Below, piece after piece: positions 18,469 through 35,966 of a DNA stretch of 38,155 nt (within the stretch, counting starts at the first letter, position 1; each line of letters opens with the position of its first letter). Source of the stretch: a virus. A program made the translations under genes and the position numbers. The notes beneath the pieces were generated by a model. It was not told where the DNA came from and ran no database searches. It saw only the letters and a program-made list of their open reading frames with translations. Where the stretch lies: positions 1 to 38,155 of the IMG/VR virus record IMGVR_UViG_3300036770_006043. One strand, given 5' to 3'.

Positions 18469-18864
18469 ATGAAAAAAGCATTAATAGACAAACGATTTTG
18501 GACAGTAGTTCAGATTATCGGTGAAAATGAAACCGAGTTTGAAACAACTGCGGATTTTATCTGGCGGCCTTGCGCAGACAACTGCGAAACAGGTTGGGGA
18601 TATGATGACAATACCAAAACATATACAGATCCGCATATTCACAGCAGAGACGAATTTGGAAATCCTGTTGAACCTTTCGTCATGCAACGGATGAGATCTT
18701 ATCCGCCTATGGGAGATCAGTTAGATATGCTGTATAAAGAAATACGAGATACAGGATCTATATCTACTACCGGAGAATGGTTCCAATCGATAAAATATGT
18801 CAAGGACAATCTGCCTAAACCCGGATCCGAAGGCGACCCAGGAAATCATATTTTTAAACCTTGA
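18469..18864 (+). CDS. probable tail-fibre assembly/chaperone-like protein
   Basis: 131 residues. The C-terminal half has 'MRSYPPMGDQLDMLYKEI', the (R/A)-x-Y-P-x-x-x-D-Q-L-D-x-(L/I)-(Y/W) signature seen in small proteins encoded next to phage tail fibres and often annotated as fibre-assembly proteins. The N-terminal part is acidic and aromatic with two Cys ('RPCADNCETGW'). An AGGA-type site precedes the ATG, 13 bases after the third fibre. It is the last gene of the rightward operon and its stop directly abuts the stop of the convergent oxygenase cassette. Chaperone function is inferred from the motif and position. Confidence 0.72.
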   Translation: MKKALIDKRFWTVVQIIGENETEFETTADFIWRPCADNCETGWGYDDNTKTYTDPHIHSRDEFGNPVEPFVMQRMRSYPPMGDQLDMLYKEIRDTGSISTTGEWFQSIKYVKDNLPKPGSEGDPGNHIFKP

Positions 18865-19461
18865 TTACCAGACTCCGAAGTTCACTACGATCCTTGAACC
18901 CGTAGTTGGCCTAGTACTAGCGTGATATCGAGAGCCGTCAAATACGACGGCTCTTCCTTTTTTAGGAGTCACTCGCTGAAATATCTTTAGTTCTTCTACG
19001 GTTACTTCCGAAGGCGAGATGTCTCTAAATGTCTTGTCATAGAAAACCGTGTCCCCATCTGAATCGCAGACATAATACAAGACATTTAGGTGCGATACTT
19101 CTCTATCAACATGAGGATGATCGACCCTATCGAGATGGGTGGGTAATGGTATCGTAAGAAAACTTCTAACAGCAATAATTTCTGTTATTCTAAATTTAAC
19201 TTTATCACAGGCAAAATATACGATCGGTAAGATTAAACCATAAGCTGGACTTATAACACCTTTTTCTCTATCATAAAATTTATGAGCAAACGCTGGCTTT
19301 GATTCAGAGACATTGATTTCTTTGATCTTATCTACATCATAGGTTATGTCTTGCATATAATGCCAATTAACATTCTCAGCCACCAACTGTTGTTGTATTA
19401 GATCCTGATATTGCTCTGGAAGAAAATCATCTAAAACCACTATATCATCTATTATAAGCAT
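18865..19461 (-). CDS. 2OG/Fe(II) oxygenase superfamily protein (HxD type)
   Basis: 198 residues. Prolyl-hydroxylase-like double-stranded beta-helix with iron ligands H117-x-D119 ('HPHVDR') and H180 ('SRYHAS'), and R190 placed to bind the 2OG carboxylate ('GSRIVVNFG'). Expected chemistry is Fe(II)- and 2OG-dependent hydroxylation; the substrate is unknown. The strand order 'LNVLYYVCDSDGDTVFYD' resembles the 183-residue product at 29999-30550, so these two are probably paralogues. It is the last gene of the minus-strand cassette, overlaps the preceding gene by 10 bases and ends exactly against the plus-strand stop. Its codons contain the opposite strand's terminator. Confidence 0.85.
   Translation of the reverse strand: MLIIDDIVVLDDFLPEQYQDLIQQQLVAENVNWHYMQDITYDVDKIKEINVSESKPAFAHKFYDREKGVISPAYGLILPIVYFACDKVKFRITEIIAVRSFLTIPLPTHLDRVDHPHVDREVSHLNVLYYVCDSDGDTVFYDKTFRDISPSEVTVEELKIFQRVTPKKGRAVVFDGSRYHASTRPTTGSRIVVNFGVW
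18931..18963 (+). terminator. intrinsic terminator of the fibre operon, embedded in the convergent gene
   Basis: Perfect 9-bp stem AGAGCCGTC (18931-18939) / GACGGCTCT (18946-18954), loop AAATAC, followed by TCCTTTTTT (18955-18963). It lies 67 bases beyond the stop of the plus-strand operon. The U-tract is on the plus transcript only; the minus transcript has no T run after the stem. The same bases encode residues R-A-V-V-F-D-G-S of the last oxygenase, just before its distal iron-binding His. Confidence 0.8.
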
Positions 19462-20033
19462 ATGATATTAAATCCTATTAAAATCCTAACATTATTTCCG
19501 TGATATGGTTCTGCATCGTGCATCAGCATACTAGGAAAAAGTATTAATCTTCCGGGAACGAATCTAGAAGAAAATCTATCATCTGCGAAATCAAGCCCCG
19601 GTTTTCTTTCCATAACGTAAGGCAAATACCAATTGTTGCCCTGTTCGTCTATGTCGCTATATATATAAAAAATTCCAGACCATGTAGATCCGGAATGATA
19701 GTGAGGTCTGTGATAACCCCCCGGTCTGGTTACATGTGCCCAGCTTTCTGTTATAGCCACTTTATAACTATTGTTATTATTGATTTTATTGATCATAGAT
19801 TCCGATTCTTCGATCAGCCACAGTTTTAAATCCATTAATTCTTGTTTAGAGTCTAAAAAATCAAAATCTGATTCCCATAATTTATTTTTAGCACGGATAG
19901 AAACATTAGATTCTATTGTATTTGGTTTTTCCAACCCCATACAAATTTCTATGATTCGATCTCTGCGATGGTCAAAATCGGACCAATCACTGATCAACAA
20001 TGGAATTTTGCCTAACGAGATTTCTTGCTGCAT
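19452..20033 (-). CDS. putative 2OG/Fe(II) oxygenase, HxH type (TIGR02466/PF13759-like)
   Basis: 193 residues. Predicted ligands H111-x-H113 ('RPHYHSGSTWSGIFYI') and H172 ('LFPSMLMHDAEP'), with R183 ahead of 'ILIGFNI'. The H-x-H...SG(V/I)(F/Y)Y plus G(R/K)LILFPS..xH plus R..I.FN pattern is that of the 2OG-FeII_Oxy_5 family, in which His stands where classical enzymes have Asp. Activity and substrate are unknown. The start codon overlaps the stop of the preceding gene by one base (TAATG), so translation is probably coupled. Confidence 0.82.
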   Translation of the reverse strand: MQQEISLGKIPLLISDWSDFDHRRDRIIEICMGLEKPNTIESNVSIRAKNKLWESDFDFLDSKQELMDLKLWLIEESESMINKINNNNSYKVAITESWAHVTRPGGYHRPHYHSGSTWSGIFYIYSDIDEQGNNWYLPYVMERKPGLDFADDRFSSRFVPGRLILFPSMLMHDAEPYHGNNVRILIGFNIICL

Positions 20034-20611
20034 TATCTAAAAATATCCACAGATACAGTCACAGTCATTACCAGCCTATCTTCTTGGCTGTTGTTTTTTT
20101 CTGTCATATGATGTAAAAAGCCAGGAAAAAATAAAACATCGTTTTGATTTACCTCAACAGTTTTCCAATTATTTCTATCGATTTTAGGGAAACCAGAAAA
20201 TGTATATTGTAACGGATCTTTAAACATAATATTGCCACCGTCAGCTGGCTGTTTGATATAGATGACTATAGTTTGGTGGCATTGGCCGTGATCATGTTCG
20301 TCTGTGTAAGCACCCGGCGGATGCAAATTAACCCAGCTCCTATGTATGAATCGAGGTATATCGTCAGCAAAATTCCATCTCTGCCATACTTCTGCTGCAA
20401 CTGTGGTTAACCAGTGTCTTAAATTATCGCAAGACTGATCGAAAATCAAATCGTTGGCCGTATTAAATGTTGTTCTGCCATCGTTCTTTTCTAGTCCGTG
20501 TATAGATTCGTCATTTAATTTTGTTCGACAAAAGGCTTCTACAGCACTTAAATCTAATGGACAATGTGTTTTATAAATTAAATCAGGCCAAAGTCTTATC
20601 GGTTCAATCAT
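20033..20611 (-). CDS. putative 2OG/Fe(II) oxygenase, HxH type
   Basis: 192 residues. The core motif 'HPPGAYTDEHDHGQCHQTIV' gives H106-x-H108; the distal ligand is H167 or H168 ('FFPGFLHHMTEKN') and R179 is the candidate 2OG contact. The short N-terminal part with 'LWPDLIYKTHCPLD' fits the usual phage oxygenase form that begins with a (F/W)P..I/V. segment. It sits directly downstream of the DUF-like gene with an ATGA overlap at 20608-20611. The product is probably cytosolic. No substrate can be predicted. Confidence 0.82.
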   Translation of the reverse strand: MIEPIRLWPDLIYKTHCPLDLSAVEAFCRTKLNDESIHGLEKNDGRTTFNTANDLIFDQSCDNLRHWLTTVAAEVWQRWNFADDIPRFIHRSWVNLHPPGAYTDEHDHGQCHQTIVIYIKQPADGGNIMFKDPLQYTFSGFPKIDRNNWKTVEVNQNDVLFFPGFLHHMTEKNNSQEDRLVMTVTVSVDIFR

Positions 20612-21366
20612 GATTCGATGTCTAGATCTGTCTTGGTTAATTTAAATTTATTTTTTGCAGAAATATAACCTCTCCAATTATACCTAGAAAGGCCATTTAA
20701 TCCTAGGATATTCATGAATCTATTTTCATCTTGACCATTATATTTTCTACTAACAGCATCGATAGATTCTCTTCGAAAAGGAATAATTCTCACCAACGGT
20801 TCGCCCATTTTAATCAAGGTATGTTTTTTTTCAAAAAAAGCTAAATTTATAGGTGTATCGTTAAGAGTCATATCGGTATCCAATATACCTGGTAAGGCCT
20901 GATAATTTTTATTGGTATAATATATTGGTAACCAAAAACAACTGTATCCGTCTATGGTTTTGATATGCCAAGGATTGTTGATCTTGATCACTAGTCTCAC
21001 ATCAAAATGATCACCTAATATTTTTTGATATTGATTTTCTGTGTGTACATCATGACTGTAATCTTGATTGCTGTATCTAATTAATACATTGTCGCCTTCG
21101 AAGTCAATCTCAATATCGCACCATGCGGATATCACATATCCGTATTTTAAAAATGAATTTATCGAAGGACATTGTCTAGCAGTCAGTTGGTAAGATAAAT
21201 TCCTGCGTTCGAAAGGACAGATTTTTCCTACAGGCAAATCCATGTATTCTTCGGGCAGTTTGTTTTCTCCTAGTTCAACTGGTGAGTATTTTCTTATGGC
21301 CCAATCTTTACAGCTGAAAGTTATAATTTCTTTTTCTTTGAAAAAACTTTTGATAAATTTGATCAT
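20608..21366 (-). CDS. unknown protein paired with halogenase (DUF6065-like, copy A)
   Basis: 252 residues, no signal peptide. Conserved-looking blocks are 'TARQCPSINSFLKYGYVISA' (63-82), 'NNPWHIKTIDGYSCFWLPIY' (130-149) and 'MGEPLVRIIPFRRE' (187-200). It has the same order of blocks as the 236-residue product at 26573-27283: QCP followed by YVI, a middle strand region, and G-(E/Q)-P-L. The layout resembles bacterial and phage proteins grouped as DUF6065, but that name is from memory and unchecked. Both copies lie directly beside a halogenase gene, this one joined by ATGA (21363-21366), so they may act with the halogenase. Confidence 0.7.
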   Translation of the reverse strand: MIKFIKSFFKEKEIITFSCKDWAIRKYSPVELGENKLPEEYMDLPVGKICPFERRNLSYQLTARQCPSINSFLKYGYVISAWCDIEIDFEGDNVLIRYSNQDYSHDVHTENQYQKILGDHFDVRLVIKINNPWHIKTIDGYSCFWLPIYYTNKNYQALPGILDTDMTLNDTPINLAFFEKKHTLIKMGEPLVRIIPFRRESIDAVSRKYNGQDENRFMNILGLNGLSRYNWRGYISAKNKFKLTKTDLDIES

Positions 21367-22952
21367 TTTTCGTATTTTGTTTTTAGATACTGATATAAAG
21401 TGGGAAGAGTTTCTACAAATTTTCTACGAGTTTCTAGCATCACATCCCAATAAGGGAAACAGTTATTTTTAAGATTTTCGATGTAATCGAGAGATCTATT
21501 TCTGTAGAGAATTCTGTGTATCAAAGATTCGTCTAATGGAAGAAAATTTAATCCGGTCGCTACACAGAGCGTACCTCCCATGTCTTCGGTGTACCTATGC
21601 TCGACATATTTCTGGCGTATCAGATGGTCGATACCAAACGATGCATATACACCTAATTGCATGTTTTTAGGCCAATTTTTATTTCTACATGCCCTCCAAT
21701 ACTCGGTATCATCACGATGGCTCATTGCATAATGTAGAGCCACAAATTCTGCAAAAGCTCTAAAGTCTCCTCTACAACCTTCATTGAATGCGAGTCTGTC
21801 AAATTCTGTAATTTCATCACGATTCAATGCTGAAACTAACTTTAATAGAAATTCATGTACAGTGTATAATCCTGAAGATTCTAAAGGTTCGATAAACCCA
21901 GCCGATAATCCGATAGCGCATACATTTTTGTGGTATATTTTTTGATGTATACCAATCCGCATTTTAATATTTTTAAATTCTAAAGAATCTATCATCTCTT
22001 TTGATTTTTTGATAGATCTGTGATTAATTAAATAGTCCTTGAATTGTTCTAATGCATCTTCGTCGCTGATGAATCTGTCACTGTAAACATATCCTGTACC
22101 TACTCTCGACCAAAGAGGAATATTCCATACCCAGCCATTTTGTATGGCCGTACAATTAGTGTAGGGTTCGAGCTCTTGTTCTTTGTCCGTAAAGGGAACT
22201 CTGGTAGCCCAGGCCGAATTGTTAGGAAGAAGATCTTCATAACTATCAAAAGGTACATTCAAAGTTTTTCCTAGTAACATAGACTTAAACCCGGTACAGT
22301 CGATATATAGATCTGCAGAAATTTCTTCACCCGATGTTAATTTAAGTACTTCGATACCGTTTTCGTTGGTTACAATTTCGATTACGTCGTCTTTGATCAG
22401 TTTAACTCCGCGAGGAATAGAAAAATTGTCTCTTAACCAAGCACCAAATTTGGCCGCGTCAAAATGGTAAGCCACATCTCTATTGAAATCCCATTCAGGA
22501 AATTCGTTGTTAGAATTATCACAGATCTTATTATTATCTGACATCGTTACTGCAGGAAAAAAAGTTTCTGCAAAGTTTTGTACGGGAAGATTATTATCTA
22601 ATGCTTTTCTTATAAACCAATCCTGCAGACCGCTAGGAAAATGTAAACGATTATAGATAGGTACTCCAAAAGGATAATGAAAGGCTCCCGCTCCTTTTTT
22701 ATAAAAATCTGTGAATTTTATGCTTAATTTATAACTAGCATCACATTGTGTCATCCAATCTTCATCTTTTATGCCCAGAGAAAATAACCATTCATTGATC
22801 TGACCTATAGTACTTTCGCCTACTCCTACCGTTGGAACGTTGGGGCTTTCGATGACAACAACTGCTTTATTTGGAAAGTTTTTGATCAGTGTAGCAGCAC
22901 TCATCCATCCAGCGCTACCTCCGCCAACTATGACTATTTTATCTATCCGCAT
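21363..22952 (-). CDS. flavin-dependent tryptophan-halogenase family protein 1
   Basis: 529 residues, the usual length. FAD-binding GGGSAGW (10-16) and 'GVGESTI' (43-49) lie at the N-terminus. K75 ('ASYKLSIKF') aligns with the catalytic Lys of PyrH (K75) and RebH/PrnA (K79). The diagnostic W-x-W-x-I-P motif is intact (WVWNIP, 274-279). E355 in 'AGFIEPLESSG' matches the second catalytic residue, with the halide-site Ser/Gly next to it. The family uses FADH2, O2 and halide to make HOX, carried by the Lys to an aromatic substrate. The closest known phage precedent is VirX1 of cyanophage Syn10, a broad iodinating enzyme. AGGA lies 8 bases before the ATG. A 36-base gap separates it from the preceding gene, the only gap in the cassette. 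Confidence 0.92.
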   Translation of the reverse strand: MRIDKIVIVGGGSAGWMSAATLIKNFPNKAVVVIESPNVPTVGVGESTIGQINEWLFSLGIKDEDWMTQCDASYKLSIKFTDFYKKGAGAFHYPFGVPIYNRLHFPSGLQDWFIRKALDNNLPVQNFAETFFPAVTMSDNNKICDNSNNEFPEWDFNRDVAYHFDAAKFGAWLRDNFSIPRGVKLIKDDVIEIVTNENGIEVLKLTSGEEISADLYIDCTGFKSMLLGKTLNVPFDSYEDLLPNNSAWATRVPFTDKEQELEPYTNCTAIQNGWVWNIPLWSRVGTGYVYSDRFISDEDALEQFKDYLINHRSIKKSKEMIDSLEFKNIKMRIGIHQKIYHKNVCAIGLSAGFIEPLESSGLYTVHEFLLKLVSALNRDEITEFDRLAFNEGCRGDFRAFAEFVALHYAMSHRDDTEYWRACRNKNWPKNMQLGVYASFGIDHLIRQKYVEHRYTEDMGGTLCVATGLNFLPLDESLIHRILYRNRSLDYIENLKNNCFPYWDVMLETRRKFVETLPTLYQYLKTKYEK

Positions 22953-22988
22953 TTAGTTTCCTTTGACAATTTAACTTAATTATCAGAT

Positions 22989-23639
22989 CTAATCTGCCAC
23001 GAATAGATTTCCTGAAATAGAAACTCTATTCTCATTGCTGGTAAAAAAAGGATAAACTAAATGTTTGATTGTCGAAGGAAAAAATAAAACAGTGCCTTCA
23101 CAAGTTTTGTCTGGAAAAAATGGCAGAGATTGGACATCTCCTAGAATATTAGTAAACACAAAATTAAAGCTAGTGGCCAAAGGATAATCAGCAGGTGTAA
23201 CATGCGGCATCGTCAATTCTTCTTCTAAAGAGTAGGGTATATCTATCCACGAAACAAAACTAAACACACCGCTATGGTTATGCAGAGGATTAAATTCGTA
23301 TTTTTTCTGGAAATTAATCCAAACTTTTTCTAGCATAAAGGACAGCGGCTTCTTGATCAAATAATTTTGAGATATCTCCTTATCAAAATTCCATGCCCTT
23401 ATGTATTGAGCAGCCATTTCTAACAAATAAGGTTGGATTATTTGTTGAGATGTTTCGAGATAAACCTGTGTTTCAAGATGACCTGCTAAATTTTTGTAGA
23501 TTTTTTCTTTTTTATCGACATTTTTTTTTATTTCTTGTATTTCTTTTTTAAGAACAGATGTTATCTCATCTGGAAATTTCGATATTGAGTAACCATAATT
23601 AGGAAAATGTTTTTGTTCTACAGAAAAATCATCAAACAT
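22989..23639 (-). CDS. putative 2OG/Fe(II) oxygenase, HxH type
   Basis: 216 residues from the ATG at 23639, chosen over an in-frame TTG at 23651 because no ribosome site favours the latter; the ATG overlaps the upstream halogenase stop by 8 bases. Motif 'NPLHNHSGVFSFVSWIDIP' gives H120-x-H122, the distal ligand is H193 ('LFFPSTIKHLVYP') and R205 ('NRVSISGN') is the 2OG contact. The insert between the strands is longer than in its neighbours, a form common in cyanophage genomes. The N-terminal 25-60 region is Lys/Glu-rich and helical. Substrate unknown; it lies between two halogenase genes. Confidence 0.82.
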   Translation of the reverse strand: MFDDFSVEQKHFPNYGYSISKFPDEITSVLKKEIQEIKKNVDKKEKIYKNLAGHLETQVYLETSQQIIQPYLLEMAAQYIRAWNFDKEISQNYLIKKPLSFMLEKVWINFQKKYEFNPLHNHSGVFSFVSWIDIPYSLEEELTMPHVTPADYPLATSFNFVFTNILGDVQSLPFFPDKTCEGTVLFFPSTIKHLVYPFFTSNENRVSISGNLFVAD

Positions 23640-25122
23640 TGTCGAATTCAATTTTGTGCATATGGGATCTGTTCATAATTATTTCTAATGCTTGTCTATG
23701 AGAAACAAACTGTTGATTATTTTCCCACTCTTTAAATTTAGTCAGCGCATCTACGGCTGCGAATTTTATATCTTCGTTCTGGCTATCATAAAAATCTTTT
23801 AACTTTTGCCTATCTAACATCTGTAGACCGTGCATAACCATCAACCAATTTTGATCTCTAAACATGAGAAAAGATCCGTTAAAGAAAACATGGCTAGGCA
23901 ATGAATTTTTAAATATATCTAACGTTTCCCTGTTAAAATCGGTTTTCGTTAATTCGCTGCAACTTCTCCAGAACTCTGTGTCTTGTCTTTTGGTAAAATA
24001 GTGTAGTTGGACAAAGTCGATGATATTTTTACAAACATTTTCAAATTCGATATTATATTGATTAGGAGTAGCAGTATCTCCAGGCTCCCATAAAACCAAA
24101 TGATTAGCCAACGCTAACGATTGCTGGATAGATGTGCCGATACTGCTGGCTTCTAACGGTTCAACAAAACTGCCAGCTAATCCTAGCGCCACGCAATTTT
24201 TAATCCAAAACTTATCAACATAGCCCGCAGAAAATTTTATTTTCTTTGCAATTTCGATTGGCTTTTCAAACACAGTCTGCGCTTCGGCGATGGCCTGCTC
24301 TTCTGTTATAAAATCATCATTGTAAACATATCCGTTACCGAATCTTCCTTGGGTAGGAATCCGCCACATCCAGCCGGCGCTCATAGCAGTACTAGCTGTG
24401 TTAGATGGAATATCTTCTAACCTTTCGGTCGGAAACGCAATCGCTGCGTTCATGGGCAAATATTTTCTACAGTCCAGCCATTTGGCTCCTAATTTAGAAG
24501 ATATTACTCTCCTAAATCCGCTACAATCGATGAAAAAATCTGCAAAATATTTTTGCCCATCGGCGTCTACAAGATGCGAAACAAATCCTTGTTCATTTAT
24601 ACCGACTTCTTCGATTGTAGCATCGACGATTTCTATAGATCTAGACGAGCACAACTTCAATAGATATTCATTAAGCTTAAAAGTATTAAAATGAAACTGA
24701 TTTACTGATGTTTCAAAATTTTCAGCGTGGGTAGAATCGTGTATGTTCTTCGGCACCAAGTTATGATGATCTAATCCGTCGATGATCATTTTAGTGTAGA
24801 TAAACGGAAATCCGGTAGGAGCCTGATGTGTAAAAGAAGAATGCAATGAATGAAAGTAATAATCATCGTCACCGTTCCAATTCACAAATTTAATACCTGT
24901 TTTAAAAGTAGCATCGGTTTCTTTTATTAATTCATTGATCGAAATTCCGCATGCTTTCATAAAGGTAGTCCAGTGTTCTGTAGAACCTTCGCCTACACCG
25001 ATTATTCCGATTTCTTTAGATTTTATGATTTGGATTTCTAATTGACTAAATTTAGATTTAAGTATGAGCGCAGAGATTAATCCGCTGGTGCCACCGCCTA
25101 ATATGATTAATTTTTTGATCAT
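23632..25122 (-). CDS. flavin-dependent tryptophan-halogenase family protein 2
   Basis: 496 residues from the ATG at 25122. A longer start at 25152 is possible, but 25122 has GGAG 6 bases upstream and makes an ATGA overlap with the preceding gene. Key features: GGGTSG (9-14), 'GVGEGSTEHW' (42-51), catalytic-type K74 ('ATFKTGIKF'), intact W-x-W-x-I-P (WMWRIP, 251-256) and E321 in 'AGSFVEPLEASS'. All elements of a working family member are present. 'KFVNW' after the Lys is closer to many bacterial tryptophan halogenases than copy 1. Identity with copies 1 and 3 is low, so the three are old paralogues or separate acquisitions with different substrates. Confidence 0.9.
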   Translation of the reverse strand: MIKKLIILGGGTSGLISALILKSKFSQLEIQIIKSKEIGIIGVGEGSTEHWTTFMKACGISINELIKETDATFKTGIKFVNWNGDDDYYFHSLHSSFTHQAPTGFPFIYTKMIIDGLDHHNLVPKNIHDSTHAENFETSVNQFHFNTFKLNEYLLKLCSSRSIEIVDATIEEVGINEQGFVSHLVDADGQKYFADFFIDCSGFRRVISSKLGAKWLDCRKYLPMNAAIAFPTERLEDIPSNTASTAMSAGWMWRIPTQGRFGNGYVYNDDFITEEQAIAEAQTVFEKPIEIAKKIKFSAGYVDKFWIKNCVALGLAGSFVEPLEASSIGTSIQQSLALANHLVLWEPGDTATPNQYNIEFENVCKNIIDFVQLHYFTKRQDTEFWRSCSELTKTDFNRETLDIFKNSLPSHVFFNGSFLMFRDQNWLMVMHGLQMLDRQKLKDFYDSQNEDIKFAAVDALTKFKEWENNQQFVSHRQALEIIMNRSHMHKIEFDNV

Positions 25123-26591
25123 TGCATTCTCCACTCGTCGAAAGTTAGACATTCTCTAGATATCAAAAAAGCTTCATTTAATAGTTGTTGATATTCTTCT
25201 TGTATAGTTTCCAACATATATTTTCTTTTGTGTTTTAATTTTGTTTCGAAAATTTTAAAGTCAAATACTTGGTTTCCTTGGAAAACTGCGGCATAATTTT
25301 CAAAAGAATAAACCGGAAAATCTTCAAAATTTACGCAGCCGGTTGCCCACTGATCTATTTTATTTTTTAAACTTTCGGGAATTTTTCGGATTTTTTGATC
25401 TTTCCAAAATTCTGAATCGTCCCTAGCAGTCATATAATGTAGATTTATAAAATCTATTACATCCGTTATCATTAATTGGTATTTATGATTATAGCTAACT
25501 TCATCATGACTGTTTAATTGACTGCCAGGATTCCAGTGTTCTGATAATAATCTCAATTGGAGACCTATCAGAGTATGACCGGGACTCCCTAACGGTTCTG
25601 GGAATCCTGTGCTCAATCCGATGCCAATGACGTTTTTAGTCCACGGATTCAGAGATAACGACGGATCCCAAGTGAGTGAAGCAATAGGAGTTATATCCTT
25701 ATTAAAAGTTTTATTGATTTCATCAACAGCTTGGTCTTTTGTGATACGAGAATTGTCATAAACATATCCTCTACCAGATCTAGATTGTAAACTCACATCA
25801 AAAGACCAACCGTTTTTTAATGCTGTCATTTCTGTGTAAGGTAGATTGCTGCTTTCATCCCACCATGCAACGACTGATGTGGCTGGAAATTCTTGACGAT
25901 AATCTTTAAAAACTTGTCCTAATGCTTTTTTAAGCAGCAATTGAGAAAAGCCGGAACAGTCAAAAAACCAATCAGCATTTAACACCGTGTGGTCTTCGAG
26001 TACCAACGAATCTATAGAACCATCATTGTCTAAATTTGTGTATAAGAATTTTTTTTCAACAAGGTTGATCTGTCTTTCAATACCTAGTCTTTTAAGATAA
26101 TTGGCATTTTTTCTGGAGTCAAAATGCCACATCGAATTTAAAATATAGGTACCATTTTTTGTATAAGGTACCTTTTTATCTAAAATCAATCTTGTTGAAA
26201 CAGATAAATCACTTACAGGTAAATTTAAAGCTAGAAGACCTAATAAAAAATCATTTTGATTTCCGAATTCAGGATATTTGTACAGATATCTATTCAGATA
26301 CCTCGAAAACAGAGGTTGTATAAAAAAATCACCGTTGCCAGACCAATTGACGAATTTTCCTCCTAGTTTTGGAATCCCATCTACTTCTTTTCGCCATGCT
26401 TCGATGGGTATATCTAAAAATTCTAGCAACTCCACAAAAGGAATGGTGCAACTCTCACCAGCAATGATCGGTAATGCATTCGGATCTTCTATTACAGTGA
26501 TCTCGATGTTTTCCCACGTTTTTTTCAAGAAAAGCGCTGTTAGCCAACCGGCGGATCCTCCACCGAGAACGATTATTTTTTTGTGAACCAT
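25119..26591 (-). CDS. flavin-dependent tryptophan-halogenase family protein 3, divergent motif
   Basis: 490 residues. GGGSAGW (10-16) and AGESCTI (44-50) bind FAD, K75 ('IPKLGGKFVNW') fits the catalytic Lys, and E332 in 'TGFPEPLGSPGH' fits the catalytic Glu. The W-x-W-x-I-P signature is replaced by WSFDVS (262-267): only the first Trp is kept, while the following 'SRSGRGYVYD' is normal. In the family this motif is thought to block monooxygenation, so this copy may have altered chemistry or may lack halogenase activity. The EPLG in place of EPLE is also unusual. It overlaps the upstream gene by 19 bases and the downstream gene by ATGA. Confidence 0.87.
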   Translation of the reverse strand: MVHKKIIVLGGGSAGWLTALFLKKTWENIEITVIEDPNALPIIAGESCTIPFVELLEFLDIPIEAWRKEVDGIPKLGGKFVNWSGNGDFFIQPLFSRYLNRYLYKYPEFGNQNDFLLGLLALNLPVSDLSVSTRLILDKKVPYTKNGTYILNSMWHFDSRKNANYLKRLGIERQINLVEKKFLYTNLDNDGSIDSLVLEDHTVLNADWFFDCSGFSQLLLKKALGQVFKDYRQEFPATSVVAWWDESSNLPYTEMTALKNGWSFDVSLQSRSGRGYVYDNSRITKDQAVDEINKTFNKDITPIASLTWDPSLSLNPWTKNVIGIGLSTGFPEPLGSPGHTLIGLQLRLLSEHWNPGSQLNSHDEVSYNHKYQLMITDVIDFINLHYMTARDDSEFWKDQKIRKIPESLKNKIDQWATGCVNFEDFPVYSFENYAAVFQGNQVFDFKIFETKLKHKRKYMLETIQEEYQQLLNEAFLISRECLTFDEWRMQ

Positions 26592-27283
26592 GTTTTAGGT
26601 CTCAATCTATTGAAAGAATTGTGTATTTTCCAACTAATTTTAGGCAAAAAATGTTTCAAGGTAAGGCTGCTGTTTACAGCGTGTTCTAGTTTTTCTGTCC
26701 TTTCAATTTTTTCAAGCTTTATTTTATCTTTAAACCTTGGAGTTCTAAATTTCACATAAGCCAACGGCTGTCCTCGTGATAGGCGTATCTCATCTGTTAA
26801 CATTTCAAAAGTTGTAACAAATGGACGATACCAATTGCCTATGTTATAACTTCCCGGAATAAGTCTCCATGCGGGATCTATATCATTAAATGGGGGTAAA
26901 CTTTCTATTAAGACATCCTCATCGGATACAAAAACAAAGCTATTGCTCAATGCTACAATGGGTCTACCTGCGTCCGGATCAAAATCTCCCCAATGTAATC
27001 TTACAAAAGAATTATGGGCTTCGAAAGGTAAATCGCTGTGCAATACCTTGTTTGTTTTATCCCATCGAAGCGTAATATCTATAGTATTTTTGATGACGTA
27101 AAATTGATTTACATAGTTTGTAAAAGCAGGGCATTGATGATATTTAGAAACAGAATCGTCCCAGGTCGATAATTTTTCAAGTTCGAAGTGTGCTAGATCA
27201 ACCCAACCATAATAATTTAACGCAGTATTAATAGTGTTGGGATTTTTTTCATTCCACGGGCAATAACCTACTTTAATTTCCAT
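26573..27283 (-). CDS. unknown protein paired with halogenase (DUF6065-like, copy B)
   Basis: 236 residues. 'QCPAFTNYVNQFYVIKNTID' (50-69), 'RPIVALSNSFVFVSDEDVLI' (107-126), 'GSYNIGNWYRPFVTTFEM' (144-161) and 'SRGQPLAYVKFRTP' (169-182) appear in the same order as the matching blocks of the 252-residue product at 20608-21366, which suggests paralogy at low identity. The C-terminal 45 residues are basic (about residues 185-236). It lies immediately before the third halogenase and overlaps it by 19 bases. No catalytic signature is visible. It may be a partner, substrate-binding or scaffolding protein; this is inference. Confidence 0.7.
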   Translation of the reverse strand: MEIKVGYCPWNEKNPNTINTALNYYGWVDLAHFELEKLSTWDDSVSKYHQCPAFTNYVNQFYVIKNTIDITLRWDKTNKVLHSDLPFEAHNSFVRLHWGDFDPDAGRPIVALSNSFVFVSDEDVLIESLPPFNDIDPAWRLIPGSYNIGNWYRPFVTTFEMLTDEIRLSRGQPLAYVKFRTPRFKDKIKLEKIERTEKLEHAVNSSLTLKHFLPKISWKIHNSFNRLRPKTWFTKK

Positions 27284-27488
27284 AATATGAAGACCAAAAT
27301 CCCATCGGACACGTCCCCGATTTCATTTTAGCTCTAGCAGTATAGGGTTCATTGATAATTTTACAAAAATTTGTTTCAGAATCGCAGGCATAACATTCTT
27401 TGCAGATCGATATTCTTTCTTCATATTTGTGATAAGGCACTAATATGACCTTTTCGTTATGATGCATTAACCTTGGTTTAGTTTTCAT
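27273..27488 (-). CDS. small cysteine-rich (zinc-ribbon-like) protein
   Basis: 71 residues with Cys at 29, 32, 35, 42 and 60 ('ICKECYACDSETNFCKI' and 'GTCPMGFW'). C-x2-C-x2-C-x6-C followed by a late C-P-x-G-x-W is the pattern of small phage zinc-ribbon-like proteins, so four of the five Cys probably bind Zn(II). The C-terminus is aromatic (FWSSYYGN). It is basic overall and overlaps both neighbours by 11 bases, so it is a genuine cassette member. It could be a partner of the oxygenases, or, more speculatively, a peptide that is modified at its Trp/Tyr tail. Confidence 0.75.
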   Translation of the reverse strand: MKTKPRLMHHNEKVILVPYHKYEERISICKECYACDSETNFCKIINEPYTARAKMKSGTCPMGFWSSYYGN

Positions 27489-28203
27489 TGCGAATATTCC
27501 GTTTAAGATCTTCTATAATAAATTGTAAATTTAATATCTTGTTATTTAAGTGCTCTATATCGCTTATACAATTGTCATCAACATACGGATACTCTGAATT
27601 TGAAGAAAGGTATTTTCCCGAGTATCCTATGTTGAATGAAATCACGATCCTATCATCATTTGATAAATTCTCACCTGTTTTGTGTCTAATGTAACCAGGA
27701 AAAAGAACCAAATCTCCTGTACGTACTTTTATCCCCGTCTCTATTTTTCTTTCGATATCGGTCGAAAATGGAATATTAGTTATACTATACTCTGCGGGAT
27801 TGGTTAATATTAAATCTCCGGAATCGTATTCTGCTTTTAAATAAAATGCAGCCACCATCGGCATAAGGCTGTGCGAATGTTGTAATGTGAAAGACCTCGA
27901 TCTATGAATATTAGACCAGCATTGATCTATTCTAGGACTTAATCTTTCGTCGACATCTAGCACACGCCAATACATGCTGGAATGAAACAGCACTAAGTCC
28001 GATAACTGTCGCATGATTGGTAGCTCGTGCAACTGATTGTCAGTTTCATAGGTGCTTACTCCGCCATGTTTTTCTAACGAGGATAAACTTTCTACAGCAT
28101 AATTCAATTTATGCCTGATTGTTTTTTCTATCTCATCGATCTCGACTAGAGATTCTAATAAGTTAATCTTATATATTGGCGTAGAAAATAAATTATGAAT
28201 CAT
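27478..28203 (-). CDS. putative 2OG/Fe(II) oxygenase, HxH type, with C-terminal coiled coil
   Basis: 241 residues. N-terminal 'NLFSTPIYKINL', then H109-x-H111 ('TLQHSHSLMPMVAAFYL'), the distal H174 ('LFPGYIRHKTGEN') and R185 ('DDRIVISFNIG'). The substrate-facing loop includes 'LTNPAEYSITNIPF', typical of the family. Residues 208-241 form a charged heptad-like tail (ISDIEHLNNKILNLQFIIED), a probable coiled coil not present in the other oxygenases, which might mediate oligomerisation or docking onto another protein. Overlaps of 11 bases with both neighbours. Confidence 0.82.
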   Translation of the reverse strand: MIHNLFSTPIYKINLLESLVEIDEIEKTIRHKLNYAVESLSSLEKHGGVSTYETDNQLHELPIMRQLSDLVLFHSSMYWRVLDVDERLSPRIDQCWSNIHRSRSFTLQHSHSLMPMVAAFYLKAEYDSGDLILTNPAEYSITNIPFSTDIERKIETGIKVRTGDLVLFPGYIRHKTGENLSNDDRIVISFNIGYSGKYLSSNSEYPYVDDNCISDIEHLNNKILNLQFIIEDLKRNIRNEN

Positions 28204-28798
28204 TAGCTATTGGTTGATTTTTTAAATACCATTTTTTGCTTACAAAAGTCTTGTAAGAAATATATTTTCTCAATTTTTTACAATCTCTAGTCGGCCCCAA
28301 TCCTCTATGCGGAATGTTGCTGTCAAAAACCAAGCAGGTGTTAGGCAATGGATAATAGGTAGCAACTACATTACCATTGTCATCAAAAAATTGGAATTCG
28401 CCTCCCCATTCTGGATTCCATTCTCTGTTCGGAAAAAAACAAAAAGTCATAAAACCGTCACCCATATCATTAAACTCTACTTCTTTGTCAGTGTGTATTC
28501 CGCCATCTAGGCCGAATGTTTTTCCGCCGGCGATAGCATGATACATCTTAAATTGATAATCAGAAGTTTCCGGAGCTGTTTGATATAGTTTATTTTGGAT
28601 TTCAAAAAATGCAACTTCACTTATTAAATGATCGAGACTGAAATCGGCTTGCCAAAAAACTGTACTATCTTCATCCCAGACATCGGGATTGGTTACTCTA
28701 CCAAATTGCCACACGGGTTTATCGAGCTCTGCACAGACATTGTTCCATGTATCATCTCGCAAGACATTTGTTAGATAAAATATTTCTTTGTTTCTCAT
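28193..28798 (-). CDS. 2OG/Fe(II) oxygenase superfamily protein (HxD type)
   Basis: 201 residues. H102-x-D104 ('GGIHTDKEVEF'), distal H164 ('NIPHRGLGP') and R177 (or R171) as 2OG contact ('LRKYISYKTF'). The segment 'TFCFFPNREWNPEWGGEFQF' is the Y(L/F)N..W....GG...(F/L) strand of prolyl-hydroxylase-like oxygenases, and 'NTCLVFDSNIPHRG' is the matching second half. The facial triad is complete, so activity on an unknown substrate is plausible. GGAG lies 5 bases before the ATG, and a TATAAATA octamer ends 22 bases before the ATG, so this gene may head an internal late transcript. Confidence 0.87.
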   Translation of the reverse strand: MRNKEIFYLTNVLRDDTWNNVCAELDKPVWQFGRVTNPDVWDEDSTVFWQADFSLDHLISEVAFFEIQNKLYQTAPETSDYQFKMYHAIAGGKTFGLDGGIHTDKEVEFNDMGDGFMTFCFFPNREWNPEWGGEFQFFDDNGNVVATYYPLPNTCLVFDSNIPHRGLGPTRDCKKLRKYISYKTFVSKKWYLKNQPIANDS

Positions 28799-29430
28799 TT
28801 TGACTCCAAATCAGGTTTACTATTTATAGGGCCTGTTAGCCCCTGCCTAAATAAATCATCTGACCATCCCGGGTGATTCCACGCTTCTGCTTCTTGATCG
28901 GTCAACAACAATTCTCGTTCATCGAACTTTAGATGATCGAAATCGCCATTTTTTCGAACGTAGTGAAAAAATATTTGATGCTGAAAACTCTGCCCGTCCA
29001 TAGGGTGTCTTAAATGGCTTATTTTGCTGCCTTCGTAAATTAATGCATCACCGATATCTATTGTAAATTCGATAAATCCAGTTTCGTTCTGAAGAAATAT
29101 CGGCCAGATAAATTTTTCATAATCCAAAGTAATGGTCAAGCTTATTTCGGCACCGGGTCTATCAAAATGAGGCAGCAAATAATCATTTTCTTGATAAATC
29201 CGTCCGTAGGTGTATACAGGATGTAATTCGCAGCCTACAATTTCTTCCACACGACTTCTAATCGATTCCATCTCGTCGTTGAAAATTCCATACCATGCAG
29301 GGCTTAATTTACATTGTCCATCGGGGGATCTGTAAATATTTCTCTGGAGTAGATCCTCCATTTTTCTAGCCATCTGGAAACATTGTTCTTTCGGGATAAG
29401 TGATTTTTCTAAATGATATAATGAAAACAT
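28795..29430 (-). CDS. 2OG/Fe(II) oxygenase superfamily protein (HxD type)
   Basis: 211 residues. H88-x-D90 ('LLPHFDRPGAEISLTITLDY') and distal H139 ('GDALIYEGSKISHLRHP') complete the iron site. The following 'SFQHQIFFHYV' matches phage and cyanobacterial oxygenases of the 'GD(A/L)(L/I)(I/V)Y.G..(L/I)xH' type. The C-terminal 50 residues (after 'DHLKFDERELLL') extend beyond the core and have no recognised motif; the extreme end is partly constrained by the overlapping late octamer. Its start overlaps the preceding stop by one base and its stop overlaps the next start as ATGA. Substrate unknown. Confidence 0.86.
   Translation of the reverse strand: MFSLYHLEKSLIPKEQCFQMARKMEDLLQRNIYRSPDGQCKLSPAWYGIFNDEMESIRSRVEEIVGCELHPVYTYGRIYQENDYLLPHFDRPGAEISLTITLDYEKFIWPIFLQNETGFIEFTIDIGDALIYEGSKISHLRHPMDGQSFQHQIFFHYVRKNGDFDHLKFDERELLLTDQEAEAWNHPGWSDDLFRQGLTGPINSKPDLESK
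28821..28828 (-). promoter_or_regulatory. internal T4-type late promoter octamer
   Basis: TATTTATA on the plus strand reads TATAAATA on the minus strand, the exact T4 late consensus. It sits inside the 3' end of the 28795-29430 gene, 22 bases before the start codon at 28798. That spacing is close to the 24 bases between the cassette's first promoter and its first gene, and a GGAG site follows. It would let the distal part of the cassette be expressed on its own. Not tested. Confidence 0.55.
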
Positions 29431-30002
29431 TATTCTATTGTTATATTAAAAGATATCGATACTCGGTTCGAATCGCTATTGTTAATACTAACAGCGTGTT
29501 CTAAAAAACTAGGAAACAAAATTAATTTTCCCACTTCTGGCACATAAGAAATCTTGGAAAACTCGGCAGATGTAATCTTATGAAATCTATTAACTGGCGA
29601 AGGATTTAAAAAAACTAAATCTCCATCTTTGCTGTTGGTCTTATGAAAATAGACTCCCGAAATATCATAACCGTCGTGCATATGGTAATTTTGAAATCCA
29701 CCTTTAACAGAGTAATTAATCCAAGATTCTGCTATGTTTATATTTAAATAATTAACTGCGAGCTGTTCTAAAAAATCTCTAGAATAATCTAGAATTTTAC
29801 TTTTCAGAATAGGAATTTGATCTAGTGTGTGGTCATAGGGGCCGTATTTAAAATTAGTCAATACTGTATCCCCCCAAGGATTTATCAGTGTTTCCTTATC
29901 CAAAGTTGACTCGTATTTTTCTATTTCGTTAGAAACTACAGCAACGTCTTCATCATTTAAGACTTTAAAATAGATTGGTGTTGGAAAGAAATACTCTATC
30001 AT
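29430..30002 (-). CDS. putative 2OG/Fe(II) oxygenase, HxH type (TIGR02466/PF13759-like)
   Basis: 190 residues and the cleanest example of the family here: 'FPTPIYFKVL' at the N-terminus, H107-x-H109 ('NYHMHDGYDISGVYF'), G-D-L-V-F-L-N-P, then 'GKLILFPSFLEHAVSINN' with H169 and 'NRVSISFNI' with R180. His replaces the classical Asp ligand. The family is common in marine bacteria and phages; no substrate is established to my knowledge. Its start codon overlaps the preceding gene as ATGA, and the next gene's ATG overlaps its stop by one base. Confidence 0.85.
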   Translation of the reverse strand: MIEYFFPTPIYFKVLNDEDVAVVSNEIEKYESTLDKETLINPWGDTVLTNFKYGPYDHTLDQIPILKSKILDYSRDFLEQLAVNYLNINIAESWINYSVKGGFQNYHMHDGYDISGVYFHKTNSKDGDLVFLNPSPVNRFHKITSAEFSKISYVPEVGKLILFPSFLEHAVSINNSDSNRVSISFNITIE

Positions 30003-30550
30003 AGTTTATAGTCTGTCGAAGCAACCGCATTGATAACTAGTCGTCTTTCGTTTATGATAGGAGAAGAACTAGAATGTAACTGATTCGAAGGAAATATAAC
30101 ACATCTATTTTTTTTAGGAACGATTTTGTCTATAATTTGGTAGTTTTCATCAAAAAAGTAAGTAGGGCCATCGCTGTCGTTGATATAATAAATCATAGAA
30201 ATCATGTTGTCTGCCGTATCGTCTTTATGCGGTGGATGAGGAACAGCACCATTAGAATTGTACTTTAACAATTGATTTATTTTTACTCTTCGATAATTTA
30301 ATATGCCTCTAGAATGTTCTGTTAGTATTGAATCGACAGCTTTGATTATTAAAGGAGTATAGGAAGAATCAGCACGACCGTTGTCTATTATCGGGTGAAC
30401 GAACTGAAATGTCTCTAAAAATTTATCTGTATCATAGGTTATATGTCCTGCGGTATAAGGATCATACCACCAATATGTATATGGATCCAAAAAGATCTGC
30501 TCGATTTCGTCGGCTAGATAAGAATTAATACAATTATCTATGATCTTCAT
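29999..30550 (-). CDS. 2OG/Fe(II) oxygenase superfamily protein (HxD type)
   Basis: 183 residues. H108-x-D110 ('PHPPHKDDTADNM'), distal H159 ('FPSNQLHSSSSP') and R169/R170 ('ERRLVINAV'). The central 'SMIYYINDSDGPTYFFD' is a prolyl-4-hydroxylase-like major sheet, and 'YFFDENYQIIDKIVPKKNRC' resembles the corresponding region of the cassette's last gene (18865-19461), suggesting that the first half and the end of the cassette carry paralogues. Both neighbouring junctions are ATGA overlaps. Substrate unknown. Confidence 0.86.
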   Translation of the reverse strand: MKIIDNCINSYLADEIEQIFLDPYTYWWYDPYTAGHITYDTDKFLETFQFVHPIIDNGRADSSYTPLIIKAVDSILTEHSRGILNYRRVKINQLLKYNSNGAVPHPPHKDDTADNMISMIYYINDSDGPTYFFDENYQIIDKIVPKKNRCVIFPSNQLHSSSSPIINERRLVINAVASTDYKL

Positions 30551-31152
30551 TTGAGGGCCAAATTAAACGGAATGCTTATCTTGTTTTTGTCTTGTTCGTG
30601 TTTATCATACCCATGATAAACGCTAGATTTAAACATTATGATTCTTCCCGGAGTACAATCATATTTGACTAATTTATAATTTAGATCATTATCCATGATC
30701 GGTTTTACAGTTTCAAACGAATCCCTGTACGGTGATCCAAAATTCAGTGTTGCGTTAGGCGGCGATTCGACATAGAACACTCCACTCAAATAAGCACGAC
30801 CCATGCTGTTGTGTACATGTAAGGCATGATAATCATGCTTTTCTATCAAGTTGATCCACATATTTACTGGTTCTATCTGATTCTCGGTAATCCCTGGAAA
30901 ACCTAAAGCATTAAGAAACCCTACAGCTTGGTAGATTATTTCTTTCGTTAATAATTTGAATGTATCTAATTTATAAATGTGTCCGTATAAAGAATGCCAA
31001 AAAGTCGTTTTAAGAGAACTTTCTCCAAAGGGGTGTGATTCTCGGCCGATTTCTTCTAAAATTTTCAGACATTGACCTTTGTAATCTTCTAATTTTTCTA
31101 ACTGATTATTATCAGTATACCAAACAGATGTAGGAAACCAATTATCTATCAT
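30547..31152 (-). CDS. putative 2OG/Fe(II) oxygenase, HxH type, Arg replaced by Lys
   Basis: 201 residues from the ATG at 31152. A start at 31176 would add eight residues but ignores the GAGG 5 bases before 31152 and the ATGA overlap with the preceding stop. Motifs: 'NWFPTSVWYT', H112-x-H114 ('LHVHNSMGRAYLSGVFYV'), distal H180 ('MFKSSVYHGYDKH') and, where the family normally has Arg, K191 ('KNKISIPFNL'). A Lys can bind the 2OG carboxylate in some members, so loss of function should not be assumed. Substrate unknown. Confidence 0.82.
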   Translation of the reverse strand: MIDNWFPTSVWYTDNNQLEKLEDYKGQCLKILEEIGRESHPFGESSLKTTFWHSLYGHIYKLDTFKLLTKEIIYQAVGFLNALGFPGITENQIEPVNMWINLIEKHDYHALHVHNSMGRAYLSGVFYVESPPNATLNFGSPYRDSFETVKPIMDNDLNYKLVKYDCTPGRIIMFKSSVYHGYDKHEQDKNKISIPFNLALK

Positions 31153-31733
31153 TTGAACCTCGGCCCGTTGACCCAAGTAACTAGGCTTTTTCTAAATCCG
31201 GATGAGACCTTTGTTACTTCGTGTATAACAAAACTAGGAAAAACTATTACCGTGCCTATTTCTTTTGGAGCAGCAGCGCATTCAGAAAGTGTATTTCTGT
31301 AAAACAGTAGATCGCCACCTTCATATTCCTTAGGATCTGATAGTTGTACCGACACGCTTAATTTACGAAACAAATTAAATTTATAACCGTCGTCAGTGTG
31401 ACTGGTATAAAAATCTAAAGTTTCGCCTTTGTATTCTGTGTACTGTAATGACTCCATTTCTGTAAGATCATATTTGTAAAATCTATCATTTAGAGAGTTA
31501 ATTATGTCGGCCAGTTTTACAAAAATGTCTTTAGATTCAGCATCGGCATCAATCCATGAAATGTTGCAATTCCTAACAGCGGAGTTAGAAACACCTCCTT
31601 CTAATTCTGCCTTGCCTCCGTAACGATTTTTTCCTAATTGTATGATTTTATCGATCTCGTCAAGACTGAAACAGTTTGTAGCATATGCAAACGGTTCGTT
31701 GGTATAATTAAAATCTTTCATTAACCAAGACAT
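31149..31733 (-). CDS. 2OG/Fe(II) oxygenase, PKHD/PiuC-like (HxD type)
   Basis: 194 residues. H112-x-D114 ('SHTDDGYKFN'), 'LSVSVQLSDPKEYEGGDL', distal H171 ('VFPSFVIHEVTKVSSGFRKS') and R181 form a full prolyl-hydroxylase-like active site with the typical end 'LVTWVNGPRF'. It is the member closest to characterised bacterial and phage 2OG oxygenases of the PKHD group, some of which hydroxylate peptides. The ATG at 31733 is preceded by GGAG at a spacing of 8, which favours it over an in-frame ATG at 31721. It overlaps the first cassette gene by 13 bases. Confidence 0.88.
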   Translation of the reverse strand: MSWLMKDFNYTNEPFAYATNCFSLDEIDKIIQLGKNRYGGKAELEGGVSNSAVRNCNISWIDADAESKDIFVKLADIINSLNDRFYKYDLTEMESLQYTEYKGETLDFYTSHTDDGYKFNLFRKLSVSVQLSDPKEYEGGDLLFYRNTLSECAAAPKEIGTVIVFPSFVIHEVTKVSSGFRKSLVTWVNGPRFK

Positions 31734-32290
31734 TTAGCTATCTCCGTGTCGAAACTTATAACATATTTGATATCTGCATGATTTTCACTGTAATGTTCTA
31801 CCCAACTAGGAAAGATTATCAGCATATTTTCTTCTATTGGAATCTCAAATTCTTGCATGTTAAAAGTTGTTGTTCTCGAGCAGACTTCGTTTATCTTGAA
31901 AGGATTGCAGGGATTTTTAATTTTTAAAAAACTGTTGGTCCCTTTGATTAACGGATAGTACACACCGCTTACTATACTCATTTCGTGTTTGTGAGGTAAT
32001 ATATATCCTTTGTTTACATATTTGTTACACCAGCTGTAAGAAATTTTCGCAGGTGTTACTCCGTAGTAATCAACAAAGCAATCTATTTCTTTTTGAAAAA
32101 TTTCTTTCAGCCATAATTTCCTGTCTAAAAAGGTGTTAGTTTTAGATCGATGTCCATTTTTAATAAGATTGTTGTTTTCTAGCTTTTCTTGATCTATCGA
32201 GTGCGTAATATCTGCTAGATCTCGAGTTGTCACTGATTCTAGTTTAATTTTTTTAATAAGAACAGGAAATATCTCTAATAGTTCATTCAT
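31721..32290 (-). CDS. putative 2OG/Fe(II) oxygenase, HxH type; first gene of the cassette
   Basis: 189 residues. N-terminal 'IFPVLIKKIKLE', H100-x-H102 ('LPHKHEMSIVSGVYYPL'), 'FLKIKNPCNPF', distal H166 ('IFPSWVEHYSENH') and K175 where Arg is usual ('DIKYVISFD'). It is therefore a TIGR02466/PF13759-like protein with a substituted 2OG-binding position. No good ribosome binding site is visible before the ATG; the leader from the late promoter would be about 18 bases. Position makes it the first gene translated from the divergent late promoter. Confidence 0.83.
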   Translation of the reverse strand: MNELLEIFPVLIKKIKLESVTTRDLADITHSIDQEKLENNNLIKNGHRSKTNTFLDRKLWLKEIFQKEIDCFVDYYGVTPAKISYSWCNKYVNKGYILPHKHEMSIVSGVYYPLIKGTNSFLKIKNPCNPFKINEVCSRTTTFNMQEFEIPIEENMLIIFPSWVEHYSENHADIKYVISFDTEIAKCLG

Positions 32291-32384
32291 CGGGAAATGT
32301 TCAAAATCTATAAATATTTATATACAGCGTATATCGCTCGAAAAAAAGTGATAAGATTTTCCAAAATTTTAAGATAAATACCAA
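32291..32384. other. divergent intergenic region
   Basis: 94 AT-rich bases between the leftward oxygenase cassette and the rightward fibre block. Besides the palindromic octamer it holds a weak inverted repeat AGCG-TATAT-CGCT (about 32326-32338) followed by seven A residues, which may be a weak hairpin or nothing. No small open reading frame or RNA gene is evident. Confidence 0.6.
32309..32322. promoter_or_regulatory. palindromic bidirectional late promoter
   Basis: TATAAATATTTATA is a perfect 14-base palindrome: TATAAATA on the plus strand (32309-32316) and on the minus strand (32322-32315). Each half is the exact T4 late consensus. It lies in the only divergent intergenic region: 24 bases from the minus-strand cassette start and 68 bases from the plus-strand fibre start. 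Both transcripts would depend on the phage late sigma factor and sliding clamp if the T4 system applies. Confidence 0.7.
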
Positions 32385-33890: not shown

Positions 33891-33898
33891 ATTAATAT

Positions 33899-35941: not shown

Positions 35942-35966
35942 GTAAATAATAGTTAAAGGACTCAAT

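Follow-up and report, generated by a model that had tools for sequence, protein, structure and literature searches.

An inverted array of 18 genes for oxidation and halogenation, located among genes for fibers and adhesins, raises the question of what is modified by these enzymes: the virion itself, a small molecule or the host. The array was analyzed in IMG/VR virus record IMGVR_UViG_3300036770_006043, a 38155-base contig from an uncultured large phage (hereafter, the window), in which 18 consecutive open reading frames (ORFs) occupy the minus strand from position 32290 down to position 18865. The answer favored here, with modest confidence, is that this cassette carries out late hydroxylation and halogenation of the phage's own fiber and adhesin proteins.

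Composition of the Cassette

The genes were numbered from g1 (18865–19461) to g18 (31721–32290), with transcription directed from g18 to g1. Since 16 of the 17 ORF junctions overlap by 1–34 bases (the remaining junction is a 36-base gap), the array is operon-like and not a run of chance ORFs. The GC content of the cassette was 35.2% vs. 43.2% in the remainder of the window. The predicted products are twelve oxygenases dependent on 2-oxoglutarate (2OG) and Fe(II), three flavoproteins of the tryptophan halogenase family, two DUF6065-like proteins and one four-Cys protein; the leftward 18-gene array with these protein classes, as proposed in the original prediction, was thus borne out by ORF calls, Pfam and the structural model of g13.

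Eleven of the oxygenases were recognized by Pfam at E < 1e-5. Seven belong to PF13759, namely, g2 (19452–20033, E = 5.5e-14), g3 (20033–20611, E = 3.4e-12), g6 (22989–23651, E = 3e-9), g11 (27478–28203, E = 2.9e-15), g14 (29430–30002, E = 1.1e-18, with distant solved relatives 2RG4 and 3BVC), g16 (30547–31176, E = 4.4e-15) and g18, the first gene of the array (E = 4.4e-11). Four belong to PF13640, namely, g1, the last gene of the array (E = 2.7e-6), g12 (28193–28798, E = 2.5e-8), g15 (29999–30550, E = 5.1e-8) and g17 (31149–31733, E = 8.2e-12), which is of the PKHD type (PiuC/YbiX-like). No Pfam match was found for g13 (28795–29430); however, its homologs carry an invariant H88-x-D90 and distal H139 (28/28), and its predicted structure (pLDDT 92) could be aligned with the prolyl-4-hydroxylase (P4H) of Pseudomonas putida at Z = 15.1 and rmsd = 2.5 over 156 residues, so that the number of twelve oxygenases was confirmed. 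The HxD...H iron triad of canonical 2OG-Fe(II) oxygenases is present in g1, g12, g13, g15 and g17. In the seven PF13759 members, HxH...H is found instead of HxD/E...H and is kept in relatives; as judged by a loose pattern that detected HxH in 83 of 89 PF13759-type matches, this is a trait of the family generally.

The fold predicted for g13 is shared with the collagen prolyl hydroxylase of virus PBCV-1 (5C5T) and with the P. putida P4H (4IW3), the matched structure of the latter having been solved with EF-Tu. Unlike g13, both are single enzymes of different sequence families and are unlinked to halogenases; the PBCV-1 enzyme, as cited in PMC9301287, is a viral precedent with peptide substrates. 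It should be noted that g1 and g13 bear the database labels "DNA endonuclease V" (phrog_274) and "ferrochelatase" (phrog_2954), respectively. Both were treated as mislabels, in view of the PF13640 match and HxD...H of g1 and of the invariant HxD...H and P4H-like fold of g13. The same two names sit on 2OG oxygenases in many phage records (e.g., gp23, gp51, gp53 and gp54 of locus L079).

For cyanophage 2OG oxygenases, a metabolic or repair role has been put forward (PMC3037559), in which consumption of 2-oxoglutarate alters nitrogen signaling (NtcA) or the enzymes repair DNA. For the cassette, such a role is hardly credible: it leaves unexplained the halogenases, the linkage to fibers and twelve divergent oxygenases under purifying selection, and the relatives detected for g13 and g17 are of the protein-hydroxylase and PKHD types.

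The flavoproteins g5 (21363–22952), g7 (23632–25152) and g8 (25119–26591) matched PF04820 (Trp_halogenase) with E-values from 1e-79 to 1e-106. The flavin motif GxGxxG, the active-site Lys, WxWxIP and EPLE[SA] (EPLES/EPLEAS) are present in g5 and g7 and in nearly all of their relatives checked (the Lys pattern was unmatched in the g5 copy of the related contig G003); by these motif criteria, g5 and g7 are flavin-dependent tryptophan halogenases of predicted activity. The product of g8 retains the flavin motif and Lys and has WSFDVS for WxWxIP and EPLGS for EPLES, i.e., Gly for the catalytic Glu. EPLGS was found in the window and in related contigs G001, G002, G004, G005 and L071, whereas the more distant G003 copy retains EPLES. 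With the catalytic Glu and WxWxIP lost, g8 may perform no halogenation; the three flavin halogenases expected originally stand as members of one family, of which g8 may not be a halogenase. On the tree, g5, g7 and g8 represent three separate old clades, which rules out recent copies: g5 lies with VirX1-type enzymes, in the same clade as VirX1 and Syn9 gp42, g7 grouped with the enzymes of HTVC008M and S-H38 (support for the deepest fork was moderate), and g8 forms a clade of its own.

The solved structure closest to g5 is that of VirX1, a marine cyanophage flavin halogenase (6QGM); the match extends over 524 residues at E = 5.5e-108, and the catalytic motifs are shared. Identity of g5 to VirX1-type enzymes is, however, only ~37–40%, and VirX1, unlike g5, has been studied as a lone enzyme outside any cassette. 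Similarity of g5, g7 and g8 to QhpG, another halogenase-like flavoprotein, is weak (NCBIfam, far below the family cut-off). QhpG acts on peptidyl Trp, which it dihydroxylates within a protein (PMC7876137), and differs from the cassette proteins in belonging to quinone cofactor biogenesis. No flavin reductase was found among the 18 genes by the Pfam scan, so reduced flavin adenine dinucleotide (FADH2) would have to be supplied by a reductase of the host or by a distant phage one.

According to Pfam and PHROGs, g4 (20608–21366) and g9 (26573–27283, phrog_17480) are members of the DUF6065/phrog_7084 family. Compared with the dUTPase 3LQW, the AlphaFold model of g4 (pLDDT 74, pTM 0.66) gave Z = 10.5 and an rmsd of 3.9 across 127 residues, and dUTPases make up the structure matches listed for it; thus, as modeled, DUF6065 has a dUTPase fold, newly found here. 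Of the dUTPase motifs, g4 retains GILDTD, resembling motif III, and g9 has PGSYNIG without Asp, the remaining motifs having been judged by eye. Since the fold is supported and catalysis is not, a dUTPase activity was not adopted, and g4 and g9 would instead be non-catalytic binding proteins. Single DUF6065-like proteins were also observed near the baseplate module of the haloarchaeal tailed viruses HSTV-2 and HF2 (L075 and L076), with no annotated halogenases nearby.

The remaining product, g10 (27273–27488), is a 71-aa protein with weak DUF6171/phrog_13558-like matches, in which four Cys residues and a C-terminal CPxGFWSS are kept across relatives; it probably binds metal. This protein also figures in the main rival to protein modification, namely, biosynthesis of a small molecule, in which a free amino acid, an indole or a short peptide (possibly a g10 precursor) is hydroxylated and halogenated stepwise, late in infection, for signaling, defense or toxicity. 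The solved halogenases of the family (PrnA, RebH and Thal) mostly act on free tryptophan, in agreement with this rival. However, no leader/core pattern is visible in g10 across relatives, and its role as a precursor of a ribosomally synthesized and post-translationally modified peptide was rejected. Moreover, the 18 genes include none for scaffold making, transfer, activation or export; the Pfam scan revealed no nonribosomal peptide synthetase, polyketide synthase, or carbamoyl-, methyl-, glycosyl- or aminotransferase among them.

Late Promoters

The sequence NATAAATA corresponds to the late promoter of the T4 type that has been described in cyanophages (PMC2984593). In six contigs it occurred 50 times, and 37 of the 50 sites were within 8–80 nt upstream of an ORF (for permuted letters of the same sequence, the ORF-upstream share had a median of 7% and a maximum of 24%). 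In the window, it is found upstream of g18, of g12 and of the giant fiber gene starting at 6520 (site at 6494). The site at g18 is part of a palindromic pair, TATAAATATTTATA (32309–32322), which g18 shares with the rightward gene starting at 32385. An internal late promoter, TATAAATA (28821–28828, minus strand), precedes g12, which is the first gene after it, and was kept 29–32 nt upstream of this gene in five of five contigs (the window, G001, G002, G004 and G005). The count of TATAAATA is not above chance (3 vs. 4.4 expected), and it is the position that stands out. Late control common to the cassette and the fiber gene is supported by the position and conservation of these predicted sites, in line with the late-promoter control suggested originally.

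Fiber Genes and Conservation of the Locus

To the left of the cassette, on the plus strand, lie the candidate substrates: giant fiber gene 1 (840–6485; 1881 aa, six CBM5/12 repeats), giant fiber gene 2 (6520–14388; 2622 aa, seven CBM5/12 repeats) and three Gly-rich adhesin/fiber-tip genes (15023–18455). The small phrog_1787 gene (18469–18864, plus strand), a homolog of Syn9 gp40, adjoins the cassette and possibly encodes a fiber assembly factor. To the right, a plus-strand block (32385–37652) contains genes for a fiber protein, a subtilase S8 protein and a gp10-like baseplate/fiber connector; the subtilase-family protein (PF00082, phrog_9158) is located at 33899–35941. The CBM5/12 repeats, which are of the chitin-binding type, hint at a polysaccharide receptor.

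These repeats also suggest a polysaccharide-rich host surface, which agrees with a further alternative, namely, that the target of the cassette is not the virion but a polymer of the host surface or host proteins, modified, for example, as a superinfection block or lysis aid. The resemblance of g17 to PiuC/YbiX-type host enzymes and the capsule decoration proposed for a related cluster (PMC7824862) are consistent with it, whereas the late promoters common with the fiber gene and the lack of glycan-acting enzymes in the cassette are not. We regard this alternative as quite improbable.

A search of related genomes revealed the same gene set in nearly the same order in the IMG/VR contigs G001 (106.8 kb), G002, G004, L066 and L071, with 14–17 recognized genes each; G005 has 13 cassette genes, and G003 has 15, including a fourth halogenase. 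The genes are not scattered, a finding that would have refuted the notion of one functional unit, and the cassette is, by gene content and order, a conserved unit. Since genes such as g3, g4, g6, g15 and g18 are present in some relatives and absent in others, its make-up is modular. Between G001 and G002, dS was measurable in 16 genes, and the ratio of nonsynonymous to synonymous substitutions (dN/dS) in these was 0.05–0.21; where measured, selection on the cassette is purifying.

Five contigs (G001–G005) were compared in full. In each of them, fibers and cassette lie on opposite strands, and the cassette is flanked at one end by the Gly-rich adhesins with the phrog_1787 gene and at the other by structural genes of the virion that lead to the neck. 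The position between two fiber blocks, as first described, is therefore correct for the window and does not extend to the relatives, most of which lack the right-hand fiber block and have, next to the cassette, a Nudix-like gene, then a sheath-stabilizer-like gene and the neck genes. The Nudix-like gene is directly beside the cassette in G001, G002 and G003, and a small extra gene intervenes in G005. It encodes a conserved Nudix-box protein and precedes the cassette on the cassette strand (G001:C1:50324-50773, G002:C1:16526-16975, G003:C1:35381-35830 and G005:C1:35673-36212); in G004 and at the right edge of the window, a related protein was observed in which no Nudix box is clearly recognizable.

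Phage Lineage and Cyanophage Loci

The capsid protein of G001 is 70–72% identical to those of Vibrio phage 2.275.O, Sinorhizobium phage Phosso and Pseudomonas phage PA5oct; its large terminase subunit (TerL) is 53% identical to that of PA5oct, and its portal protein is 46–52% identical to those of jumbo phages. Compared with cyanophages and pelagiphages, the identity of the head genes is about 28–36% (capsid 36%, TerL 32%); they are thus closest to the PA5oct-like jumbo lineage and fall outside Kyanoviridae. The fiber tips, the phrog_1787 gene and the cassette, unlike these head genes, resemble Kyanoviridae, the matches of the Gly-rich fibers being partly due to low complexity. In the three PA5oct-like phages checked (PA5oct, Vibrio 2.275.O and Phosso), there was no halogenase or PF13759 match and, in total, one weak PF13640 match. 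Since the heads of the relatives are PA5oct-like while these phages lack the halogenase, the simplest reading of the comparison is a joint transfer of fiber tips and cassette from lineage to lineage, as a single exchangeable unit; contig chimerism is a residual possibility for this lineage reading, though several contigs agree in gene order. No psbA match was found in ten related viral contigs, and, given the jumbo-type head genes, a cyanobacterial host was no longer taken as given.

The original prediction named single phage oxygenase or halogenase genes as known and called an array of this density unusual. Novelty of such an array is not supported, because its density has precedent in cultured cyanophages: in Syn9 (gp41–gp54), S-CREM1 (69–80), P-RSM6, P-TIM40 and S-RIM44, one or more halogenases, usually DUF6065 (not detected in the P-RSM6 locus) and several oxygenases lie directly behind fiber genes. 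These Kyanoviridae loci share with the window the VirX1-type halogenase(s), DUF6065, a PF13759 oxygenase and more oxygenases, often including the g13 type, and in most of them the phrog_1787 gene is also present. The order halogenase–DUF6065–PF13759 oxygenase (g5-g4-g3 in the window) is found in Syn9, S-CREM1, S-RIM44 and P-TIM40, and with its Gly-rich fiber genes, phrog_1787 gene and this gene order, the window has a locus of the Syn9 type. The Kyanoviridae loci differ in being smaller, with one or two halogenases, and in running in the same direction as the fibers. In the window, the array comprises 18 genes, its three halogenases represent three old clades, DUF6065 occurs twice and the orientation is opposite to that of the fibers; the relatives of the window, moreover, belong to another phage lineage. 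The setting among receptor-binding genes is supported, the cassette–fiber linkage being seen in two phage lineages, and the cassette is an enlarged form of a locus that databases already contain. In HTVC008M, a smaller minus-strand oxygenase set is located between baseplate/fiber genes and the neck.

Among the 58 viral loci found with g5, several of which are short or near-duplicate, 49 contain an oxygenase, and 49 have an oxygenase, DUF6065 or Cys-protein gene directly beside the halogenase. A Trp-rich protein of ~150 aa (PYxSW...W..P...WDE...W) was observed near the halogenase in 31 of the 58 (e.g., L016:7278-7739). It was not counted as evidence for a general substrate, being absent from the window group and present also in marine phages outside the halogenase set.

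The cyanophage cluster of the S-SSM6a type (8–12 genes), in which a halogenase is found together with 2OG oxygenases, carbamoyltransferases and HemK, is predicted to make a halogenated metabolite or to decorate the capsule (PMC7824862), the former speaking for small-molecule biosynthesis. The window resembles this cluster in the combination of a halogenase with several 2OG oxygenases and cupin-type enzymes; the S-SSM6a-type cluster is defined by carbamoyltransferases, HemK methylase and HAD phosphatases, whereas the Pfam scan found none of these three among the 18 genes, which places the cassette outside this type. The differing make-up of the cassette among relatives does recall secondary-metabolite islands. 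However, fiber-tip linkage across two lineages and late timing would not be expected of small-molecule biosynthesis, which we consider unlikely.

Bacterial DUF6065 Loci

Bacterial genomes were scanned with a narrow DUF6065 profile, a broader first profile having been too diverse. Most of the 80 loci obtained had no oxygenase neighbor, and only the few loci with oxygenases count as informative. In Azospirillum melinis, g17-like and g13-like oxygenases and DUF6065 lie behind a Tyr/Pro-rich RTX repeat protein (YVPGFYSPGFY...), which was the only Tyr-rich ORF of 5188 in the 80-locus scan. In a second genome of the same order (DUF6065 52% identical), the same set was found with a divergent repeat protein (MAYYPGFYVKGFYSPGFY...PSYYPSYYPSYY), and three DUF6065-only loci of this order contained neither the oxygenases nor the Tyr/Pro-rich RTX repeat protein. 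As an analogy, these loci suggest that enzymes of this set act on proteins rich in repeats, the association being correlative and confined to few genomes. The operon resembles the window in uniting homologs of g17, g13 and g4; it differs in being cellular, in comprising three enzymes or partners without a halogenase and in having an obvious repeat-protein neighbor.

The two Azospirillaceae loci (L181:5652-8675 and L191:5023-8459) represent a small operon of cellular origin that may serve to modify proteins. In a third locus with an oxygenase, on a contig from a Dehalococcoidia metagenome-assembled genome (L178:7941-10319), DUF6065 and a PKHD oxygenase are likewise accompanied by a repeat protein, here with GVSATG repeats and spaced Trp residues at its end; this contig is phage-like in style and is possibly a prophage or a binning error.

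Proposed Function

According to the reading favored here, the cassette would be expressed late, as a protein-modification module during virion assembly. The oxygenases would hydroxylate side chains of the fiber and adhesin proteins encoded by the neighboring genes, and the two intact flavin halogenases, g5 and g7, would halogenate side chains of the same proteins. The dUTPase-fold DUF6065 proteins and the four-Cys protein may serve as non-catalytic adaptors, and the receptor-binding tips would become stiffer, more adhesive or chemically varied. We infer in this scheme that the substrate is a protein, and likewise which protein and residues are modified, with which halogen, through which adaptors and to what benefit.

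Modification of protein is favored because the cassette is linked to fiber tips across lineages, shares late promoters with a fiber gene and lacks scaffold-building enzymes; because its structural kin act on proteins (P4H and PHD2; QhpG) and the bacterial loci give a hint in the same direction; and because dN/dS is low in every gene for which dS could be measured. Several points weigh against it. The cassette may lie beside the fibers because this site tolerates insertions. The jumbo affiliation was read from contigs of relatives, the window itself being without head genes, and the bacterial analog consists of two related genomes with no halogenase. VirX1 iodinates diverse small substrates in vitro, according to a title cited in PMC10452541. 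The HxH of seven oxygenases departs from the classical HxD, and their activity is predicted only; no collagen-like or Tyr/Pro-rich substrate repeats were found in the fibers of the window. The two outcomes suggested originally, virion modification or a modified small molecule late in infection, are therefore separated in part: the fiber linkage favors virion modification, and since no substrate is visible in the sequence, the small-molecule and host-surface readings each keep the low probability assigned above.

Phage halogenases and 2OG oxygenases have long been catalogued as auxiliary metabolic, DNA-repair or secondary-metabolite genes, and no native substrate for them is established in the corresponding works (PMC3037559, PMC10452541, PMC7824862). 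In the literature searched, this locus was not recognized as a fiber-linked module, and nothing on it was found under prolyl hydroxylase or virion modification. A bolder and less probable reading is a mobile fiber-finishing module, in which adhesin tips would move jointly with a large set of dedicated hydroxylases and halogenases between distant lineages, and the enzymes present would confer on each phage its own swappable tip chemistry (hydroxylated residues and residues bearing Cl, Br or I). The fiber linkage supplies a concrete, testable class of substrates, the fiber tips, also in cultured phages. If this is true, phages would chemically modify their receptor-binding proteins post-translationally, which would matter for adhesion, host recognition and protein-halogenation biocatalysis.

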